A stretch of DNA of 64,000 nucleotides. It comes from a virus. Location: positions 248,001 through 312,000 of the IMG/VR virus record IMGVR_UViG_3300045971_000577, one strand, 5' to 3'. Shown here piece by piece: positions 7,570 through 60,784 of the stretch (positions are counted from its first letter, which is position 1; every line of letters starts with the position of its first letter). A program made the position numbers and the translations under genes. Under the pieces are notes generated by a model that worked only from the letters and a program-made list of their open reading frames with translations, was not told the origin of the DNA and did no database searches.

Positions 7570-7644
7570 TGGTGCGTCTGGAGGGAATCGAACCCTCGTC
7601 ATAGGATTTAGAATCCCGTACTCTAACCGCTGAGCTACAAACGC
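7570..7644 (-). tRNA. tRNA with CTA anticodon (amber suppressor)
   Basis: Acceptor GCGTTTG/CAGACGC, D-arm GCTC...GAGT, A26, then CGGGA-TTCTAAA-TCCTA, T-arm GAGGG-TTCGATT-CCCTC, A73 and CCA. With the D-stem closing at position 25, the anticodon loop is TTCTAAA and positions 34-36 are CTA, which reads UAG. A shift by one (TCT, Arg) leaves two mismatched stem pairs and no residue 26, so CTA is preferred, though the stem itself has one mismatch and one G-U. An in-frame UAG lies 360 nt away in the PTH2-like gene. Confidence 0.65.
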
Positions 7645-8811: not shown

Positions 8812-8878
8812 GAAAGGCAGTTGGGTTCGAACCAACAACATTCGCGCAGGACGCCTCTTCCCGTTGGGCTACACCTAT
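8812..8878 (-). pseudogene. Truncated tRNA (pseudo-tRNA)
   Basis: The D-arm (GCC...GGC) and T-arm GTTGG-TTCGAAC-CCAAC are intact and the acceptor arms pair with one mismatch, but only about 16 nt separate D- and T-arms instead of about 23, so the anticodon arm is broken. No CCA is encoded. Probably a tRNA remnant. Confidence 0.5.
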
Positions 8879-8992
8879 TGCTATATCAGAGCGTTACTTC
8901 GATACATTGACCCACAGCACCTCTGGCTGATTCTTCCTTCTGGAAAAGAAGGCGTGCTCTATGAACACTACGGTATGTATCTCAGTAACTAA

Positions 8993-9919
8993 CTATAGCA
9001 GAGTCAAAGCTGTTCCGCAAGCTGAACAAAATTTGGCTGTTGCCTTATTTGTGTGGCTGCAGGTCGAGCACTTTTGGGTCGTTTTGACCGTAACTGGTGC
9101 AGCAACTTCAATTGCACCAACAACACCTGCCATACGAAGGATGATTACTTCGGACTTGGCTTCGGAGTTGAATCCGTAAACTGCTTGGAACGATTGCTCA
9201 ACCTTGGATCCCGGAACAGTGATACCTGCTTCGTTCACTTCGGGTGCAACATAGCTATCCATGGTAGGAGTAGATGCAGCAACGCTGTTGGAGAAAACTG
9301 CGTTCGAAGATTGCAAAGTTGCGCTGGTGGATGTTGCGTTGGCAGACATACCGCGCATGACACCCTTTGTCGCTGTGGCAGAAGACAAACTTCCGCCACC
9401 TGCTTCGCTGCTGTTGTAGGTAGCAGACTGTGTTGCATTAGTGGAACCATAGAACGGACCGTCACTGTAGGTATACTGGTCAAAGATTGACTTGCGATAC
9501 GGATGACGATAGCCATACCAGTATTCGTGATGATGAACAGTAGTTGTGATGGTTGGCTTTTCTTGTTCGAACCAATATTCGACACGAACAACACCGTCGT
9601 CAACCTTGATACCACGCGGGCCATCTTCGATTGCTGCGGTACGCTCGATGAACTTGAATGCGTTACCTTCTGTCATGTTGCCGTTGCGAATGAAACGCTT
9701 TAGCTCGACTTCGGAGTTTGCATTTACGATGATTTCTGTGCCGTCAAGGACGTCAGTACCATCGATGTGGAGTGTGAACTTTGCTCTGCGTGAATTTAGA
9801 TTTTTCACGAGGACGGTAAACTCACTACCAAACGGTAGGAGGACCAGGTCTTTTTGTTCACGAAGGATTTTGCCGTTGTGTTTGATTGCCACGGCCAGCT
9901 TATTTTTCATCATATTCAT
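8993..9919 (-). CDS. Protein with C-terminal zinc ribbon, 308 aa
   Basis: The N-terminal half (about 1-115) is a beta-rich domain (LAVAIKHNGKILREQKDLVL...). A His/Tyr-rich patch follows (VHHHEYWYGYRHPYRK), then a long Ser/Thr/Ala-rich linker, and a C-terminal zinc ribbon CSTCSHTNKATAKFCSACG (CxxC-12-CxxC). Good ribosome-binding site AAAGGAAA before the ATG. Low-complexity linkers joined to a zinc ribbon are seen in phage accessory or virion proteins; a specific role cannot be given. Confidence 0.75.
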   Translation of the reverse strand: MNMMKNKLAVAIKHNGKILREQKDLVLLPFGSEFTVLVKNLNSRRAKFTLHIDGTDVLDGTEIIVNANSEVELKRFIRNGNMTEGNAFKFIERTAAIEDGPRGIKVDDGVVRVEYWFEQEKPTITTTVHHHEYWYGYRHPYRKSIFDQYTYSDGPFYGSTNATQSATYNSSEAGGGSLSSATATKGVMRGMSANATSTSATLQSSNAVFSNSVAASTPTMDSYVAPEVNEAGITVPGSKVEQSFQAVYGFNSEAKSEVIILRMAGVVGAIEVAAPVTVKTTQKCSTCSHTNKATAKFCSACGTALTLL

Positions 9920-9969
9920 ATTTTCCTTTAAAACAGCACACAGAACAAGTGCTCAAAGTTTCAGTTCTG

Positions 9970-10554
9970 TTAGGTGCTACCCTGTGTAGCATTACTATTT
10001 ATATTTTTACAAAATCGTTCATGCCTTTTTATGTTACAAAATATTATGTTCTTCTTACCGCACCTAACGCATTCTATATATTTGGTGGGGCGAGATCTAT
10101 TAGAACATGCCTTAGAACAATAATATTCGTTGTATTGTCTTTTATCTCCTTTTGTAAAAATCTTAGAGAATGATACGCCGCAATAGCAGGTATACCTATT
10201 TGTTACTCTTTCTATTCGGCGCCCTAACAAAGATCTCTTAGCGATATGCGCTGCGGATTGTTTATACCCCGAAGTTCCTTCGCCACCGTCTGTTTTATTT
10301 CGGAGAATACCTGTACCAATATCTATTCGACCATACCACTGAATCATTCTGCGTTCAATCGCGAATGCACCTAACTCGGTGAGATTATTTTCTAATATCA
10401 ATATTAATGATTTATCCGGCGGTTGTATATGCTCGGTGCGGCTCTTTAGGTAAGCCCTGTTTCCCGAACCTTTACCGATATAATACGGTGTTCCGGCCTT
10501 TGCCGTTCGTGAATCTACTTTTCGTAAATACGCATAAACATAAAATGTTGTCAT
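9970..10554 (-). CDS. GIY-YIG homing endonuclease with zinc-finger C-terminus
   Basis: 194 residues. [11 protein letters not shown] ... [14 protein letters not shown] contains the GIY-YIG equivalents (YVY...YYIGKG); the catalytic-domain continuation is [19 protein letters not shown], with Arg and Glu in the helix, followed by [14 protein letters not shown]. The C-terminus carries CYCGVSF, YYCSKAC and [12 protein letters not shown] cysteine pairs, likely zinc-binding DNA-recognition modules. Good AAGGAG ribosome-binding site. Paralogous to the 14043 and 40938 genes. Confidence 0.85.
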
Positions 10555-12952: not shown

Positions 12953-13203
12953 GTTTTCAAACTAACCTAAACGAACTGTTTGCATCCGGTAACCCATATG
13001 CGGTGGCAATAGCAGAGAAGATAAAGAATATCGACGATGCGTATGCTAATAAACTCATCACTGCGGATGAAGCTAAAGACCTTCTCAACGATATGAAAAC
13101 GGAAGAAGCATTAGTTGATCTTGCCAACAATTTGCAAATAAAACTCTATGTTCAGCAAACAATCGATAAGTTGATATTTCTTGTCGAGAATGTGATTTTT
13201 TAG
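12949..13203 (+). CDS. Hypothetical protein, 84 aa
   Basis: MSFQTNLNELFASGNPYAVA... Overlaps the lipoprotein stop by 4 nt (ATGA). Helical and acidic; no family recognised. It stops with TAG, followed two codons later by TAA, so amber read-through would add only two residues. Confidence 0.65.
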   Translation: MSFQTNLNELFASGNPYAVAIAEKIKNIDDAYANKLITADEAKDLLNDMKTEEALVDLANNLQIKLYVQQTIDKLIFLVENVIF

Positions 13204-13207
13204 TCAT

Positions 13208-13233
13208 AAGAATAGGAACCGAAGTTCCTATTC
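13208..13233. terminator. Convergent hairpin terminator
   Basis: AGAATAGGAAC and GTTCCTATTCT form a perfect stem. On the minus strand the loop is the very stable C(UUCG)G tetraloop. It lies between the convergent 84-aa gene and the tmRNA and probably ends both. Confidence 0.7.
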
Positions 13234-13407
13234 TGGATTTTCTGTTGCCAGGCATTCCTGCCCCGTGGTTTACCGCTTTTTAGGCAGCAAGAGCCTCAGT
13301 GTAAAACGAATCATTTGCGTTTACTTTTTGTTTTCTTCGATTTACGGTCGTTGCTCACCGAGCGATAAGAAGCCTACTCAATACCCAGGCGATTCCGGAT
13401 CGGGCCC
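13234..13407 (-). ncRNA. ssrA: tmRNA coding piece of a permuted (two-piece) tmRNA
   Basis: The 5' end at 13407 reads GGGCCCGATCCGGAATCGCC, the counterpart of the conserved tmRNA 5' end (acceptor arm plus D-like loop). Its first 7 nt pair perfectly, with one G-U, with CGGGTCC of the acceptor piece. A small pseudoknot-like CGGT...ACCG region precedes the resume codon GCA at 13316-13318; the tag frame reads ANDSFYTEALAA and stops at TAA (13280-13282). The ALAA end is the ClpXP/ClpAP degron typical of tmRNA tags. The piece ends at the UUCG hairpin. Gene order (acceptor piece, 27-nt spacer, coding piece) is that of permuted tmRNA genes. Confidence 0.92.
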
Positions 13408-13434
13408 ATAACTAAAACTTCACAAAAGGCTTAG

Positions 13435-13489
13435 TGGTGGACCCGGGGGGATTCGAACCCCCTTGTTGAATGTCTTTCTGTTTCCTACT
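13435..13489 (-). ncRNA. ssrA: tmRNA acceptor piece
   Basis: T-arm GGGGG-TTCGAAT-CCCCC directly followed by the acceptor strand CGGGTCC, discriminator A and CCA at 13435-13437. There is no 5' acceptor strand upstream; it is supplied by the coding piece 27 nt downstream. The upstream boundary is estimated from the end of the preceding small gene. Confidence 0.88.
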
Positions 13490-13624
13490 TTACGCTGTTA
13501 TTTTCCTTAATTCTGATTCATAATAGTGTAGCAGACCTACAATAGTCATACGATCAAATCTGTTACCGTATCCTAAATGCCGTCTGTAGTAATCAATCTG
13601 TGATTCAATAAATGATTTACTCAT
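13490..13624 (-). CDS. Hypothetical protein, 44 aa
   Basis: [20 protein letters not shown]... Starts in an ATGA overlap with the smpB stop and ends just before the tmRNA acceptor piece. Helical, with many Tyr/Arg. Too short to classify; its position between smpB and ssrA suggests co-transcription. Confidence 0.5.
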   Translation of the reverse strand: MSKSFIESQIDYYRRHLGYGNRFDRMTIVGLLHYYESELRKITA

Positions 13625-14046
13625 GATAGCTTCTGACTCTTTACGATACGTCTAAGTTCGAGTTCTGTGTCTCGCTTCTTTTCCGTAGCTCGTTTGTCGT
13701 ACTCTTTCTTACCCTTTGCAAGTCCAATCGAGAGTTTGTATTTACCTCTCGTTGAATAAATCTTCAACGGCACAAGAGTTAGTCCACGTTCCTTTGTCTT
13801 ACCGATGAGACGTTGGATTTCTTTCTTATGCAAAAGCAACTTACGCGAACGGGTCATATCGTGCTCGGAGCCACCGATGTTAGCGCCCACAAGCATGATG
13901 TTACCATCCATAACTACGCAGTGAGTTCCGGCGATTGAACAGCTCTTAGCCGCAATCGCCTTTACTTCCCAGCCTTCCAGCTTCATTCCACACTCGTATT
14001 GCTCGAGTATTTCATAATCAAAGAAGGCCTTCTGATTTGAAATCAT
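13621..14046 (-). CDS. smpB: SmpB, tmRNA-binding protein
   Basis: 141 residues of SmpB length and layout: N-terminal [20 protein letters not shown] with the EVKA strand, the central [12 protein letters not shown] core, [20 protein letters not shown], and a basic C-terminal tail [20 protein letters not shown] that lies in the empty mRNA channel. SmpB binds the tRNA-like domain of tmRNA and brings it to stalled ribosomes. A permuted tmRNA lies immediately downstream, so a complete trans-translation pair is present. It overlaps the upstream GIY-YIG gene by 4 nt. Confidence 0.95.
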
Positions 14047-14810
14047 AATTTCTCTTTACAGTTATCAAAATGCCATCTATTCATCGATTCTTTACAGTTA
14101 TCAAAATGCCATCTATTCATCGATCCTTCACCGCCCGACCGTTGGCAGTGCGGGCACTCAACAGTATTTCTTTTTTTACCAAGCCTTGACAATCCGATGT
14201 TAATATTATGTTCTGCCGAATTAGGTTTACCTTTTGCTGCTAAACTCATTTTTTCACGAGTCTCTTGGCTTACTACCTTATTTCGCATTTTCTGTTTTGT
14301 TTCTTCGGACATATTTTGTTTGGCTATGCTCATCTTATATCTCGCATCATCTGACATTGTTTTGCCGATGTTAGCCTCGCGCATTTTCTGTTTTGTTTCT
14401 TCTGTCCGAATTTTACCTGTATTTTTATCACTTATTCTTTGACGAACTTCTTTGGGCATAGATTTACTAGCTAATCCGATAATTTTCCGGGTTGCTGCAG
14501 AATGACTATGACCGGATGCTCCTTCGCCGCCATCGGTTCTGTTTTCTAAAATCCCTGTGCCTAAATCTTTTCGACCATACCACCGAATCATTCTGCGTTC
14601 GATTGCAAATGCACCGAGCTCAGTTAGATTACATTCTAAAATTACAATACGTGATATATCTACAGGAGTGTGTACTCCTGTATTATTCTTTTTATTCCTA
14701 TGATCAACATAAGCTCGATCTCCTGTGCCTTTTCCGATATAGTACGGTGTGCCAACATTAGCGGTTGCCGAGTTACGTGATCTTAAATAGGCATATACAT
14801 AATAATTCAT
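14043..14810 (-). CDS. GIY-YIG homing endonuclease with NUMOD3 repeats
   Basis: 255 residues. GIY-YIG core YYVYAYLRS...[14 protein letters not shown] with [20 protein letters not shown]; then about five NUMOD3-type DNA-binding repeats of the form (S)[14 protein letters not shown]. The C-terminus ends CPHCQRSGG then a tandem duplication of about 12 residues ([12 protein letters not shown] twice), visible in DNA as a 36-bp direct repeat around 14052-14123. TATAAATA lies 5 nt before the ATG. It is inserted directly upstream of smpB, overlapping it by 4 nt. Confidence 0.88.
14052..14123 (-). repeat. Tandem 36-bp duplication in GIY-YIG C-terminus
   Basis: Two nearly identical 36-bp copies encode the WHFDNCK motif twice. 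The same C-terminal motif occurs once in the HNH gene at 45212-45862. Confidence 0.7.
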
Positions 14811-14815
14811 ATATG

Positions 14816-14823
14816 TATTTATA
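14816..14823 (-). promoter_or_regulatory. Perfect T4-late box TATAAATA
   Basis: TATAAATA on the minus strand with exactly 5 nt before the GIY-YIG ATG, so the predicted start of transcription is at or next to the A of the ATG. Confidence 0.6.
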
Positions 14824-14876
14824 CAAATTTTTGTATTAAGCCTTTTTATTTTCTATCATAGCGTATTATAACTTAC

Positions 14877-15545
14877 TTACCACATAAGGTCAAAGAAACC
14901 GCGTAACACCTTGTTAACGCTTCCTGTCTTTCCGCTGTTGTGATCCTTTACAACATCGTCTTGAAAACGGTATGTTTGTATCTTATCCCCGCGCATGCCA
15001 GAACCAACCTGTTCTTTGCGGCTTGAATCTAGCGCGAACTTGTGCTCTCTATGTGCGTGTGCGTTTAGTGCCTCTAGCAGGGCTTGCTTCGCCTGATCTT
15101 GGCTATTTTGCCTGGATCGACACTGTGCCGTGGCAGTTTGGCCTGTAGGCAAATACGTTATACGACACGAATTTTGATGTTTGTTGCGGTGTTGGCCGCC
15201 TGCGCCAGTACCGCTGTACCATTCTATTCTAAAATCCGAGTCTTTGAATTCGATATTACGCAATTCGGGATCAGTGATCGCAACTGTTACGGTGCTGGTA
15301 TGAACTCTGCCCTTGCGCTCGGTTGGTGGAATACGCTGTATGCGGTGCCCACCTGCTTCTTTCTCTAACTGTGATAAGTCTGCACCCTCAACTTCTATGA
15401 AAAGTTCTCCGGGGAGATTCCTTATCACGCGATTGATTCAGCCAACTCTGTCAAAGTGGCGTTGGTATGCTGCTGCAAGATCTACAGTGAATAGCTTGCT
15501 GTCTTCTCCGCCCTCAGCTGCGCGTATTTCAATAATTCTTTTCAC
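14877..15545 (-). CDS. Short RF1-type release factor with in-frame UGA at a Trp position
   Basis: Read from GTG 15543-15545 (GGAG 8 nt upstream) the frame is MKRIIEIRAAEGGEDSKLFT...YQRHFDRVG, UGA (15438-15440), INRVIRNLPGELFIEVEG... In bacterial release factors this spot is the conserved Trp of (R/G)-W, so UGA replaces UGG. The rest has GGHRIQRIPPTERKGRVHTS (a PxT-type codon-recognition motif, RF1-like, for UAA/UAG) and SGTGAGGQHRNKHQNS with the catalytic GGQ. About 222 residues; domain 1 is missing, as in PrfH-like factors. Full-length product needs UGA read-through; initiation downstream of the UGA would lose half of domain 2. Confidence 0.8.
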
Positions 15546-19353: not shown

Positions 19354-19375
19354 AAAAACGTAGTATACAACAAAA

Positions 19376-19412
19376 ACGGCGCAGAGTCAAGTAGACCGTG
19401 CGCCGTTTTGAT
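19376..19412 (-). terminator. Rho-independent terminator after cytochrome gene
   Basis: AAAACGGCGCA and TGCGCCGTTTT form an 11-bp stem followed on the minus strand by TTTTTG. It lies 15 nt after the cytochrome stop. Confidence 0.75.
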
Positions 19413-19426
19413 AAAATTAGGTATTC

Positions 19427-20131
19427 TTACGCAAATACGGTCATCAAGGTTACCCCGGCCTTACGGATATATATCTGCGCATAGTTGATTAGCTTATCAA
19501 CTGCTGATGCACACTTGAAACTATTATCAATACTATGGCATGTTTCGCATGCATCCGATGTAGTTGGATGCGATGCGTAGCTTGATTTACCTTTTGCATA
19601 GTTACCATCGTGGCATGTTACGCAACCTGTGGTAACACCTGCGTGGATAGCTGAGTGGCTTACATCCCAATTGTTTGTATTGTGGCAAGCCAAGCAATCA
19701 GCAGTTGTAGGAATGTGTTCTGAAGGTTTCTTTCTTGCGCCCTGACCGTTATATGTTGCATTATGGCAAGCGTCACATCTCATTGAGGCAACTGAGGTAT
19801 GGCTCATATGCGGACTCACGAATGTTGTTGTGGTGTGGCACGAAGAACATTCAACAATAGTGGTCGGAATATGTCCAGTCGAAAAACCCATCGCCATGTA
19901 TGGTGTAGTACCTGTGTGGCAAATGGTGCATTGGCGCGGAGTACCAACGAATATACCAGCCTTGTGGCAAGATGCGCATGTGCTACATTTGCCTGTCGAT
20001 AGGTGTGCGCCGGTTAGAGGCCACATTGGGTGAGATTGTTCGTACATGGTGCATTCAGCAGCTGATGCCGATACCGGTGATAGTAGTGTTATAAAGGCTA
20101 CTACGATAGCAGCAAGAAAGCGTGAAATCAT
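19427..20131 (-). CDS. Secreted seven-haem c-type cytochrome
   Basis: 234 residues from ATG 20129-20131, chosen because GGAGAAG precedes it and a clean Sec signal follows (MISRFLAAIVVAFITLLSPV, cleavage near SASAAE). Seven CXXCH haem-c motifs occur: CASCH, CTICH, CSSCH, CDACH, CLACH, CVTCH, CETCH, spaced about 20-35 residues with conserved H-(I/V)PTT-x-C phrases that supply distal His ligands, as in bacterial multihaem electron-transfer proteins. Periplasmic or extracellular electron carrier expected. It directly follows the outer-membrane barrel gene (41 nt) and ends at a strong terminator. Multihaem cytochromes are very unusual in phage. Confidence 0.88.
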   Translation of the reverse strand: MISRFLAAIVVAFITLLSPVSASAAECTMYEQSHPMWPLTGAHLSTGKCSTCASCHKAGIFVGTPRQCTICHTGTTPYMAMGFSTGHIPTTIVECSSCHTTTTFVSPHMSHTSVASMRCDACHNATYNGQGARKKPSEHIPTTADCLACHNTNNWDVSHSAIHAGVTTGCVTCHDGNYAKGKSSYASHPTTSDACETCHSIDNSFKCASAVDKLINYAQIYIRKAGVTLMTVFA

Positions 20132-20153
20132 GACTTCTCCAAAAATATAGAAG

Positions 20154-20161
20154 TATTTATC
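20154..20161 (-). promoter_or_regulatory. Late-type promoter box for cytochrome gene
   Basis: GATAAATA on the minus strand 22 nt before the cytochrome ATG, just before the end of the barrel gene. Confidence 0.5.
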
Positions 20162-20172
20162 AAAGGATGCAC

Positions 20173-21825
20173 TCAAAATTCCTTTCTGGCACCAATAAAA
20201 TACGAAACTGATGTCTTCTTAGAATTGAGTAATGCCAATCTATCTATCGCATGCATATTTGAGATAGATGCCTGACCTTCGATTGATATATCATCGTTTA
20301 TTTTTTTGCTTGCCTTGACTGAGATAGTGGATGAACTTGAGGAAATATTTGCTGTTGAATGATGTTCGAATCTCAAAACACCCTCGGTTCGTATCTCACC
20401 AAACGTCTCGTTCAACACAAATGCACCGTACACGGACTTAGTGTTCGATGACGAAGAGATACTTGTCATAAAGATTCCAGTAGAATCTGCAGACATTATT
20501 TTCGACACAAATAAGTGAGCGTCGAGTGTTATTCTTGCATCACCGGGCTGATTATTTACAGAAGACATGCTAGAAAATTGAGTTCCTAAATATCCTATAA
20601 GATTAGGGGCCAGTGTTGTACTGCTACCAATAACAAATGTGGATACAATAGGAGTATGGTCCCTGACATAATTCACAATGTCGTTATCACTAAAACTTTG
20701 CCGTATTTCGCGAATATTCGAAAACTGTCTTAGCAGTTGAGTATCTAATCCCATGTTCAAAGCCTTATCGGCTGTCAATATCGGGGATCGTCTAATATCA
20801 GCTAGGGTATATATGGTCGTATTTCCTAACGGAAACGAATATTGCACCAAAATAAAATTCAGCCGGCTGTATATCGTGTCGAACTCAGATATCGATGTTA
20901 AAATTCTACCGGCCTTGAATGATCTATATTCAAACCCTATAGCATCTCGTTCTGTAAATCCATCTACAGTCTGTCTATTCACATACATGTCGATATAGCT
21001 ACTATCATCAATCTTTTTTTCAAGGGATGCACCAAAAAATCTCTTTCGCATGAAGGAACTTTCAGGTGTACCTGCAGACAGGGAACCGGTAAGATCTTCT
21101 TGTAATCTATACTTCACCAATACTCCGTCAAACTGACCGGTTGATGCATTTATAGATGATTGTCGTCCAATCTTTATGCTGTATCTGTCAAGCGTATCTT
21201 CGTATTCAGCTGAAAATATTCTGACATTATGCTGATTATTTGTTAAGTTATGAAAGTTTTCTCTATCTGTTGCCCTAAAAACTATTGTAAGTTGGCGATT
21301 GTCTTCGCGGAAGAATCCGCGTGCCCTAATATTTGTTGTCAGCCTAACAATAGAGTCTGATGAGGTTAGGTATGTAGAAACAGACCCATCTACTTTTCTT
21401 TCAGACCCAGTCTTTGATACGTTAGGCTTAGTCCTATCTACTGGCGGGGCGGCTGGCGCTGCTATTTCAAGCGCGATAAGTTTATACTTTATTCTCTGAG
21501 CTGCTTGTGAATTCGGATATAAAGATAGATAAAGTTGACTTTCGATCTTTGCTTTTTTGAATTGTTTTGTCAATTCGTATGCTTCGATAATCAATTCGTG
21601 CGCTTCTTGTTGAAACTCTGTAGGTACCAGCAGTATCTCGTTCAATATTTCTATTGCGGCTGCTGCGTTATTACCTGCCTTTACTAATGAGCGCGCCTCT
21701 TCCATCATAACCGACGGTGCCCGCGATGTTATTATCGTTTCTTCAGCATGTGACACCGATACTGTGTGTAAAAATACAACAATAGACAGAATGCGAAGTA
21801 CACATAGAAGATTATTAGATTTCAT
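20173..21825 (-). CDS. Outer-membrane beta-barrel protein with TPR-like N-terminus
   Basis: About 550 residues. A Sec signal (MKSNNLLCVLRILSIVVFLH...VSHAEE) is followed by a helical TPR-like segment of about 90 residues (ARSLVKAGNNAAAAIEILNE...), an Ala/Pro linker, and about 400 residues of alternating amphipathic strands ending in Phe (FIGARKEF), the BAM signal of outer-membrane barrels. The arrangement recalls TPR-porins such as PgaA/BcsC and porin partners of electron conduits. With the adjacent multihaem cytochrome it could form a surface electron or binding module; this is inference. A GATAAATA box lies upstream. Confidence 0.72.
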   Translation of the reverse strand: MKSNNLLCVLRILSIVVFLHTVSVSHAEETIITSRAPSVMMEEARSLVKAGNNAAAAIEILNEILLVPTEFQQEAHELIIEAYELTKQFKKAKIESQLYLSLYPNSQAAQRIKYKLIALEIAAPAAPPVDRTKPNVSKTGSERKVDGSVSTYLTSSDSIVRLTTNIRARGFFREDNRQLTIVFRATDRENFHNLTNNQHNVRIFSAEYEDTLDRYSIKIGRQSSINASTGQFDGVLVKYRLQEDLTGSLSAGTPESSFMRKRFFGASLEKKIDDSSYIDMYVNRQTVDGFTERDAIGFEYRSFKAGRILTSISEFDTIYSRLNFILVQYSFPLGNTTIYTLADIRRSPILTADKALNMGLDTQLLRQFSNIREIRQSFSDNDIVNYVRDHTPIVSTFVIGSSTTLAPNLIGYLGTQFSSMSSVNNQPGDARITLDAHLFVSKIMSADSTGIFMTSISSSSNTKSVYGAFVLNETFGEIRTEGVLRFEHHSTANISSSSSTISVKASKKINDDISIEGQASISNMHAIDRLALLNSKKTSVSYFIGARKEF

Positions 21826-21837
21826 TTTATACAAATG

Positions 21838-21845
21838 AATATTTA
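21838..21845 (-). promoter_or_regulatory. Late-type promoter box for barrel-cytochrome genes
   Basis: GATAAATA on the minus strand 12 nt before the chosen ATG. Confidence 0.5.
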
Positions 21846-21848
21846 TCA

Positions 21849-23260: not shown

Positions 23261-23352
23261 TGGCGGAAGTGGGCGGATTCGAACCCCCTAACCCTTGTTC
23301 AGGATCAAACAGTTTTCAAGACTGGGCTGCTCTCCAAGACAGTAGCACTTCC
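23261..23352 (-). tRNA. tRNA-Ser(TGA)
   Basis: Class II. Acceptor GGAAGTG/CACTTCC, anticodon arm CCAGT-CTTGAAA-ACTGT, long variable arm, G73 and CCA. Its 5' half overlaps the C-terminal codons of the endonuclease gene. Confidence 0.92.
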
Positions 23353-23970
23353 ATATAACTTTATAAAATCTTTCCCATATTTATCTATAACATATCTAAA
23401 TATAGGTTGCATATCTTTTTCATATAAAACTGTTACAGATGGATTGGCAGCTAGTTTAGCCTCCCACTGTTCAGATTTATATCCTTTTATTTCAATAAAA
23501 TTTCCATTAACTATAAAATCAGGAATGTAATTTCTATTCCTGTCATTCCATACATATGGCAATTTTGTGTTATTCTTCTGTATATTCGTTCCGTGATCTA
23601 AAGAATATATTACATAAGCCAATTCCCAACTACTGTCACAGAATATGCCTTTATACCAACCTTTCTTACCTCTACCCGATCCGTGTCTGTAACCACCAGT
23701 AGTTAATTTAGCCTTCTTACTGATTCTTTCTTTTCTTAGTTCTTCTAATTCGGGGGTAGATGCCCTGCCAGAGGTTGATCCTTTTATGCCTTTGTTCCAC
23801 GCTGTCTGCAACCCAGTCTTACCTGCATTCCAGGGAATAAATCCTTCATAAAAGCCGGATTTCCAATCTTTTATCTTGATTTTATGATTAGGATTTTCCT
23901 TGCAGTAAAGCTGATGTATTGAACATCCATTTACATTGGCTAAAATCCTCGAACAATAAATGCATTGCAT
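23305..23970 (-). CDS. PD-(D/E)XK homing endonuclease overlapping tRNA-Ser
   Basis: 221 residues. N-terminal cysteine motif MQCIYCSRILANVNGCSIHQ; basic linker with WNKGIKG; the nuclease core is SSWELAYVIYSLDHG ... YIPDFIVNGNFIEIKGYKS, giving E, PD and E-x-K in the order of Vsr/PD-(D/E)XK homing enzymes. GATAAATA lies 4 nt before the ATG. The last 16 codons (YGSATVLESSPVLKTV) are read from the tRNA-Ser gene, and a second GATAAATA (23378-23385) inside the coding region sits 25 nt before that tRNA. Confidence 0.82.
   Translation of the reverse strand: MQCIYCSRILANVNGCSIHQLYCKENPNHKIKIKDWKSGFYEGFIPWNAGKTGLQTAWNKGIKGSTSGRASTPELEELRKERISKKAKLTTGGYRHGSGRGKKGWYKGIFCDSSWELAYVIYSLDHGTNIQKNNTKLPYVWNDRNRNYIPDFIVNGNFIEIKGYKSEQWEAKLAANPSVTVLYEKDMQPIFRYVIDKYGKDFIKLYGSATVLESSPVLKTV
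23378..23385 (-). promoter_or_regulatory. Late-type box inside endonuclease gene, for tRNA-Ser
   Basis: GATAAATA encoded within VIDKYGK of the endonuclease, 25 nt before the 5' end of tRNA-Ser. Confidence 0.45.
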
Positions 23971-59611: not shown

Positions 59612-60784
59612 TTAATAAAACTTCAATGTCGAGCTGTCAATACCAACCTTCGACAAATAGTCAGCTGCGTTACCGAAGCTGTTTGCTGTGTTAGTAAGTT
59701 CTAGGTAGCCGTAACGTGTCATGAACGATACAACTGGTTCGAACGTTTGTGGATCCATAACTGGACCGACGCTCATCAATGGAATGTATGGGCAGTAGTA
59801 AGCTGCGGCGTCAGTTTCTGTAGGACCCTTGTAACCCATAAGGATTGGGTCGCCATCGCTAGCGTACTGGTTGACATACACGCGCATTGTGCTGTTCAAT
59901 GTACCAACAAACTTTGTGTTTGTAGGTGCTTCGAATGTACCTTCTGTGGTACGAGCAAACGACGATGTTGTTGCAGACTGAAGAATTGTCAACGCTGTTG
60001 GCGAAACAACTGCCCAGTTAGCAGCACCACGACGTGTGCGTGCAGCAATCAAGTTGGCCTGCTGGTTGATCATAACTGCTAGCGCAGCCATTTCATCACC
60101 AACGTATGTAGCTGTACCAGATACAGCGGCTTGGTTGAATGTTGTTGGAGCGACAGGAACTAGAGCGCCTAGCTTGTAGAGCATTTCCTGGTCGATTTCA
60201 ACTGTGATTTCTTGTGCAAGAGCTTGCATGATTTCAGCTTCGATGTCGATACCGTGAATAGCATTAGCATCTTGAGCGGCTTCGAATGTCCAACGAGCAG
60301 ATAGTCTGCGTGTCTTAGCTTCGACAGTCTCTTTCAAGATCTGAATGCTCATCTTGTTACCTGGTACACCTTCCATACGTGCTGTAGAAGCAGCAGCAGG
60401 GTCAGCTTGAACTTCGTTACCCGAATATGCCTTAGCAATTTCGAATGGACCAAGAGCTTCTGTACCAGCTGTTACACCAGCGGCTGTGTTTGCATAGCGA
60501 ACACGAAGAGTGTGGATCTGACCGACGGGGCCTGTCATTGGCTGAACGCCCATGATTTCGTTAGCGATAACGGTAGGCATAACACGACGGATTAGGGGTA
60601 GCATCACCTTGTTTAGTACAGCGATGTTACCAGCTTGTGTAGCACCTGCGGTTGCCGATTCAGCCAAGTAACGACGAGTGTTTTCAAACACGACGTCCAT
60701 GGACTGTCTACGGGTACCCGAAAGGCCTTCTAGAAGGGCTTCTTTTGTTGCGCCCCAGTTTGATTCAAATAGCTTTGTTGCCAT
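59612..60784 (-). CDS. gp23: Major capsid protein, gp23-like
   Basis: 390 residues. MATKLFESNWGATKEALLEG with RRYLAE-SATAG, a match to the gp21 cleavage rule (L-x-E), so the first ~42 residues are likely removed in maturation. VLPLIRRVMPTVIANEIMGV QPMTG, then QIHTLRVRY and KTRRLSARWTFEAAQDANAI-HG, PYIPLMSVGPVMDPQTFEPV and MTRYGYLEL are gp23/HK97-fold markers. Shorter than T4 gp23 (521 aa). Located last in the 67-21-22-23 order, with its own terminator. Confidence 0.93.
   Translation of the reverse strand: MATKLFESNWGATKEALLEGLSGTRRQSMDVVFENTRRYLAESATAGATQAGNIAVLNKVMLPLIRRVMPTVIANEIMGVQPMTGPVGQIHTLRVRYANTAAGVTAGTEALGPFEIAKAYSGNEVQADPAAASTARMEGVPGNKMSIQILKETVEAKTRRLSARWTFEAAQDANAIHGIDIEAEIMQALAQEITVEIDQEMLYKLGALVPVAPTTFNQAAVSGTATYVGDEMAALAVMINQQANLIAARTRRGAANWAVVSPTALTILQSATTSSFARTTEGTFEAPTNTKFVGTLNSTMRVYVNQYASDGDPILMGYKGPTETDAAAYYCPYIPLMSVGPVMDPQTFEPVVSFMTRYGYLELTNTANSFGNAADYLSKVGIDSSTLKFY

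Follow-up and report, generated by a model that had tools for sequence, protein, structure and literature searches.

A seven-haem cytochrome and an outer-membrane barrel encoded together in a T4-like jumbo phage, probably part of a miniature PCC3-derived electron conduit

Do some phages encode a path for electrons through the outer membrane of their hosts? The question is raised by two neighbouring genes in a 64,000-nucleotide stretch of DNA (hereafter the window), which corresponds to bases 248001-312000 of a 369,145-base IMG/VR virus record (G000). A preliminary description, made from the letters of the sequence, reported a gene for a secreted cytochrome with seven CXXCH motifs, preceded immediately by one for a secreted TPR and beta-barrel protein, and read the pair as an auxiliary module of porin-cytochrome type, acting in electron transfer or in modification of the cell surface. 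We propose that the pair probably specifies the outer-membrane end of a miniaturised, PCC3-derived electron conduit, an auxiliary function in some T4-like jumbo phages.

The record carrying the window is a T4-like jumbo phage (369 kb). Its gp23-type major capsid gene (Table 1) served both as evidence of phage identity and as a handle for finding relatives; the capsid protein is 78% identical to that of Pseudomonas phage PA5oct and about 66% identical to those of jumbo phages such as CBB and PBECO4, and additional head and tail genes are also encoded in the window. The window contains 34 tRNA and tmRNA genes, concentrated in a cargo region, and the barrel and cytochrome genes are co-directional and lie between tRNA genes of this region. 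The base composition and codon usage of the module are inside the range of the remaining window genes.

The cargo region (window positions 1-29100, with more than 30 tRNA genes) is a mosaic, and the tRNA regions of two relatives (G004 and G008) hold scattered pieces that match it. It includes a NUMOD3 gene of homing-endonuclease type (14043-14810) and a Phage_endo_I-like gene (23305-23970). At 13189-15428 and 7570-7644 the phage encodes a tmRNA and an SmpB of its own, the C-terminal half of peptide chain release factor 1 and a tRNA with the anticodon CTA. The release-factor fragment has 183 residues and aligns to positions 159-332 of the 347 in RF1. The tRNA is assigned to Pyl by ARAGORN and is possibly an amber suppressor; despite this tRNA, TAG is the stop codon in four of 38 sampled genes.

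Table 1. Coordinates of the module and of other features discussed, in window positions.
Feature	Position	Strand	Evidence and remarks
Secreted seven-haem c-type cytochrome (CytB type), 234 aa	19427..20131 (including stop)	-	Pfam Cytochrome_C7, 1.5e-8; Paired_CXXCH_1, 9e-7
Outer-membrane sheath protein (barrel), 550 aa	20173..21825	-	AlphaFold; homologues in phages and bacteria
Late-type promoter box GATAAATA, barrel gene	21840..21847	-	14 nt before ATG; box enriched in window
Late-type promoter box GATAAATA, cytochrome gene	20154..20161	-	22 nt before ATG; box enriched in window
Intrinsic-terminator-like hairpin with T-rich tail	19370..19410 (approximate)	-	-23.2 kcal/mol, z -4.25; just past cytochrome stop
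gp23-type major capsid protein	59612..60784	-	PHROG 138, E 1e-93; outside module

The cytochrome gene is read from ATG 20131 in preference to TTG 20176, with GGAGAAG upstream of the ATG, and the N-terminus of its product is a signal peptide (...SASA-AEC). The seven CXXCH motifs that had been described behind it are indeed present, at residues 52, 68, 95, 119, 146, 170 and 195; in 20,000 composition-preserving shuffles the mean number of such motifs is 0.08 and the maximum is 2. No other open reading frame in the window has at least two CXXCH motifs, and no second C7-type cytochrome is encoded across the whole 369-kb record. An alignment of 12 seven-haem cytochromes shows no variation at any of the seven CXXCH motifs, and outside these exactly seven histidines are likewise invariant (residues 34, 43, 87, 111, 139, 163 and 188). 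Since this is the number needed for seven bis-histidine haems, we infer that these residues are the distal ligands, one per CXXCH haem. With one conserved, putatively distal histidine per motif and a Pfam C7 match above the cut-off, the protein has the features of a bis-His c7/c3-type cytochrome; against a DmsE/MtrA-type decahaem model it scores 26 bits, far under the 192-bit cut-off. An AlphaFold model of the cytochrome, made without haems, is meaningless and was set aside.

The barrel gene starts at ATG 21825, and its product has a signal peptide and a final Phe, as the preliminary description had it. The architecture described there is borne out by the AlphaFold model (mean pLDDT 88), in which five TPR-type helices (residues 37-122) come before a barrel domain of 22 strands (141-549) that is interrupted at 352-389 by a helical insert; the TPR domain is predicted to be short and periplasmic. 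The calculated backbone radius of an ideal 22-strand barrel is near 20 Å, so the geometry would permit a short haem wire at or through the barrel. PHROGs, Pfam and NCBIfam hold no model specific to the barrel, and PHROGs has no family for the cytochrome either. The barrel has no Pfam or NCBIfam match to the MtrB/PioB family, and no MtrB-like structure is among the best 50 matches in a fold search with its model. Those fold matches are generic porins and ushers, with TM-scores up to 0.5 (by target length), and the search therefore names no family. A Pfam match to DUF5424 and PDB matches to parvalbumin and spike structures were rejected as chance.

The late-type boxes and the terminator noted in the preliminary description are both upheld (Table 1). 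The window contains 31 copies of KATAAATA where 7.35 would be expected, a count reached in none of 100 shuffles, and in a related phage record (G012) GATAAATA also lies directly ahead of the barrel gene. Late-type boxes were not found at the majority of the remaining viral loci that carry the module.

How widely the pair is distributed among viruses was not apparent from single-sequence scans: with either protein these found no relatives in IMG/VR or among 50,697 GenBank phages, because members of the family have diverged too far to be reached from a single seed. Searching whole phage records related through the capsid gene revealed the pair in G012. The capsid proteins of G012 and the window are 96% identical, the barrels share 28-29% identity and the cytochromes 45-47%; the G012 barrel also has an N-terminal AMIN domain, which the window barrel lacks. 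Alignment of the two pairs led to 16 viral loci and, with added members, to 21 IMG/VR loci other than the window, representing about 14 distinct types besides it once near-identical contigs are set aside. The barrel gene precedes the cytochrome gene in all viral loci with enough upstream sequence, and in most of them a second small cytochrome with four to six motifs (CytA) is encoded between the barrel and the CytB-type cytochrome; loci without CytA are the window, L090/L100 and L176. In five carriers the contig that bears the module also has a gp23-type capsid gene, and the capsid proteins of G012, G026, G029 and G034 are 68-96% identical to the window's. The module is often within tRNA arrays (L085, L086, L091, L093 and L173).

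A number of further features were observed in these carriers. The barrels of L092, L093, L094, L099 and L178 have, instead of the AMIN domain, an N-terminal extension of 160-170 residues with a hydrophobic, lipobox-like stretch (ATALYASSC) late in it, and the carriers are phages of about 327 kb and their kin. L093, a locus of a 327-kb phage, has near the module a full-length S-adenosylhomocysteine hydrolase gene (8817-10106; Pfam E 2e-130). Response-regulator genes with a near-identical N-terminus (MRTQ/MKTQRKILVVDDDPVVG...) are present in the tRNA regions of two carriers (L085:1137-1829 and L173:5374-6060). One phage that already has CytA, CytB and an inner-membrane protein (G021) encodes an extra secreted cytochrome with four CXXCH motifs about 39 kb off (L174:5670-6311).

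That inner-membrane protein (IMP, about 150 residues), with two WX3HX13H motifs and SGXXG, is encoded in five phage records (G021, G026, G029, G034 and G035), in a form without the long loop of its bacterial counterpart; no specific model of it exists in Pfam or NCBIfam. Its gene adjoins the module except in G034, where it is about 60 kb away; the window's phage (G000) has none. A search of six carrier phage records for Ccm-type assembly genes (PF01578) was negative, and cytochrome maturation would therefore have to come from the host, as had been anticipated.

Profile searches did not find the module in the large relatives G004, G008 and G016, and its absence from such close relatives marks it as accessory cargo. 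When an empty insertion site was sought in G004 and G008, only scattered matches in the tRNA regions were seen, since reshuffling of the cargo region has left no clean site. In the pair of loci L092 and L099, dN/dS (NG86) is 0.13 for the barrel, 0.04 for CytA and 0.07 for CytB, values that indicate purifying selection on the module genes in these relatives. With a capsid gene on the same contig, dN/dS of 0.04-0.13 in relatives and homologues in bacteria, the module has the attributes by which auxiliary metabolic genes are recognised.

The bacterial homologues belong to a described type of gene cluster. As defined by He et al. 2017, PCC3 comprises a porin, extracellular and periplasmic cytochromes with medians of 34 and 21 haems respectively, and a five-helix IMP; Methylotenera versatilis is among its carriers, and its role in electron transfer is a hypothesis from genomics (PMC5566968). 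Putative novel PCCs have also been reported in Methylotenera and Methyloversatilis MAGs from the humic Trout Bog (PMC6344600). In the bacterial clusters that we read, barrels of 580-1000 residues have as encoded neighbour a cytochrome that carries as many as 62 motifs; a 24-27-haem cytochrome is usually present too where the contig extends far enough, and six loci also have an IMP with two WX3HX13H motifs and SGXXG. Judged by gene content, these Burkholderiales clusters fit the published PCC3 description. Phage CytB can be aligned with roughly the first 200 residues of the bacterial long cytochrome (39% identity, E 8e-32; L132) and CytA to its C-terminus (47%, E 9e-49; L149), so that both look like cut-down forms of what is presumed to be the surface cytochrome. 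The comparison with bacterial clusters that the preliminary description proposed thus finds both proteins homologous to cluster parts, and supports its assignment of the pair to an auxiliary module of porin-cytochrome type.

One bacterial chromosome, a 2-Mb contig of the Methylophilaceae MAG P-RSF-NP-02 (G036), carries the same three genes as a small trio (L084) in the order CytB-barrel-CytA. Its barrel groups with the phage barrels: in an unrooted tree, the phages and L084 (12 rows) split from the standard bacterial PCC3-type barrels with 100/100 support. A tree of the shared N-terminal part of the cytochromes gives no clean separation of CytA and CytB. Searches with the L084 barrel recover homologues from 22 of the 399 genomes examined in its order, and the barrel profile has matches in 25 of 187 genomes of the family. 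In G036 the trio holds the only PCC3-type barrel found, with an IMP and 27-haem cytochrome locus elsewhere in the genome; the small outer part would there have to connect to a standard inner part. The trio (L084:6653-12355), the sole chromosomal one found, is flanked by transposase-like and ammonium-transporter-like genes. Transfer of the module between phage and bacterium may have run either way.

The main rival to an electron conduit is remodelling of the host surface against other phages, in which a diverged phage version would replace or mask a PCC3-type receptor complex of the host and exclude superinfection, the haems serving for folding only. The barrel has indeed changed more quickly than the cytochrome (the window and G012 share 28% identity in the former and 45% in the latter), as exposed loops in an arms race would, and late expression is compatible with such a role. 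Yet all seven haem sites and the seven extra histidines are retained without exception, and a decoy needs neither the second cytochrome present in most carriers nor the quinone-side IMP of five records. We consider this reading unlikely; the surface modification named in the preliminary description is kept as this rival.

Somewhat less probable again is a part in redox or haem buffering, with the cytochrome as a periplasmic sink for electrons or haem (for instance against oxidants) and the barrel as an unrelated nutrient porin. A cytochrome of this small size could be soluble, and C7-type domains are often periplasmic, but the linkage of barrel and cytochrome in all carriers and in bacterial clusters, and the homology of both proteins to parts of one bacterial cluster, argue against it. 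It is very improbable that the module is a recently captured host cluster, decaying and useless to the phage: its patchiness among close relatives and the lack of a second cytochrome in the window and two other types would agree with decay, but the L092/L099 dN/dS values are well below 1, the haem sites are invariant over large divergence, and late boxes and terminator are fitted to the pair. Least probable of all is that the segment is host DNA or a misassembly foreign to the phage; although G004, G008 and G016 lack the module, the contamination that the preliminary description named as a refutation is contradicted by the pair's occurrence in the 21 other viral loci, on independent phage contigs with capsid genes among them, by the phage late boxes on both genes and by composition and codon usage typical of the window.

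For the electron conduit that we favour, the following scheme is suggested. Late in infection, phage late promoters would drive transcription of both genes, and the host's Sec, Bam and Ccm machineries would export and assemble the two proteins. The 22-strand barrel would form a wide sheath in the outer membrane with the TPR domain facing the periplasm, and the cytochrome, loaded with its seven bis-histidine haems and held in complex with the barrel, would provide a short wire at or through it. Electrons could then move between a periplasmic multihaem cytochrome of the host and an extracellular donor or acceptor, such as humic substances or iron. The window's phage has neither an IMP nor a periplasmic many-haem cytochrome and its module would therefore rely on the host, which would supply the quinol-side and periplasmic carriers as well as cytochrome maturation; sister phages add a second small cytochrome, and some also a compact PCC3-type IMP, and would thereby encode a larger part of the chain themselves. 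The host is probably a Burkholderiales bacterium, perhaps one of the Methylophilaceae. The phage may benefit through respiration sustained over a long infection.

A broader proposition, which we hold to be evenly balanced, is that some jumbo phages encode a compact trans-envelope conduit (at its fullest an IMP, one or two small cytochromes and a barrel) that is made during infection and routes host electrons to or from outside partners, which would make viruses direct drivers of extracellular respiration where waters are humic or rich in iron. Recurrence of the gene set in related viral sequences suggests that viruses can take over such respiration. Known phage cargo includes genes for photosynthesis, for sulfur oxidation and for haem-derived pigments; if the module is functional, phages would also co-determine carbon respiration in anoxic humic water. 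With about 550 plus 210 residues and 7 haems, the phage-encoded proteins would amount to a minimal conduit made by nature, simpler to produce and to solve structurally than their bacterial counterparts, which carry tens of haems, and they would open the PCC3 hypothesis to direct test. No earlier report of a phage-borne porin-cytochrome system was found in the open-access literature searched.

Among known systems the module is closest to PCC3. The barrel is homologous to those of clusters matching the published definition, with 22 strands predicted, and the IMP motifs recur in five sister records; three defining features are nevertheless wanting. The homologue of the extracellular cytochrome has only 7 motifs instead of tens, the 369-kb record encodes no periplasmic cytochrome of about 21 haems, and the IMP is missing from G000 and a short form of about 150 residues, against some 300 in PCC3, in the sister phages. 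The module is also phage-encoded, has another gene order and falls in a separate barrel clade, and its sequence features place it as a PCC3-derived miniature porin-cytochrome module rather than as PCC3. With MtrCAB, MtoAB and PioAB it shares a multihaem cytochrome encoded beside an outer-membrane barrel, but it lacks both the MtrB/PioB-family barrel and the decahaem MtrA-type partner of MtrAB and PioAB, having 7 haems; the MtrB barrel has 26 strands, against the 22 predicted here. The L084 trio has the same proteins in the same size class; it differs in its chromosomal location and gene order and in having no late-type boxes. The nearest earlier idea is that of the Borg extrachromosomal elements, which are also mobile, carry multihaem cytochromes and may boost extracellular electron transfer by their hosts (PMC11208441); unlike the phage module, Borgs are archaeal elements of methane oxidisers and are without an outer-membrane barrel. 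Phage sulfur-oxidation genes, including SoxD with cytochrome c motifs, would likewise sustain an energy pathway of the host (PMC8190135), but those phages carry sulfur-oxidation enzymes, whereas the module described here would be an electron conduit of the cell envelope.
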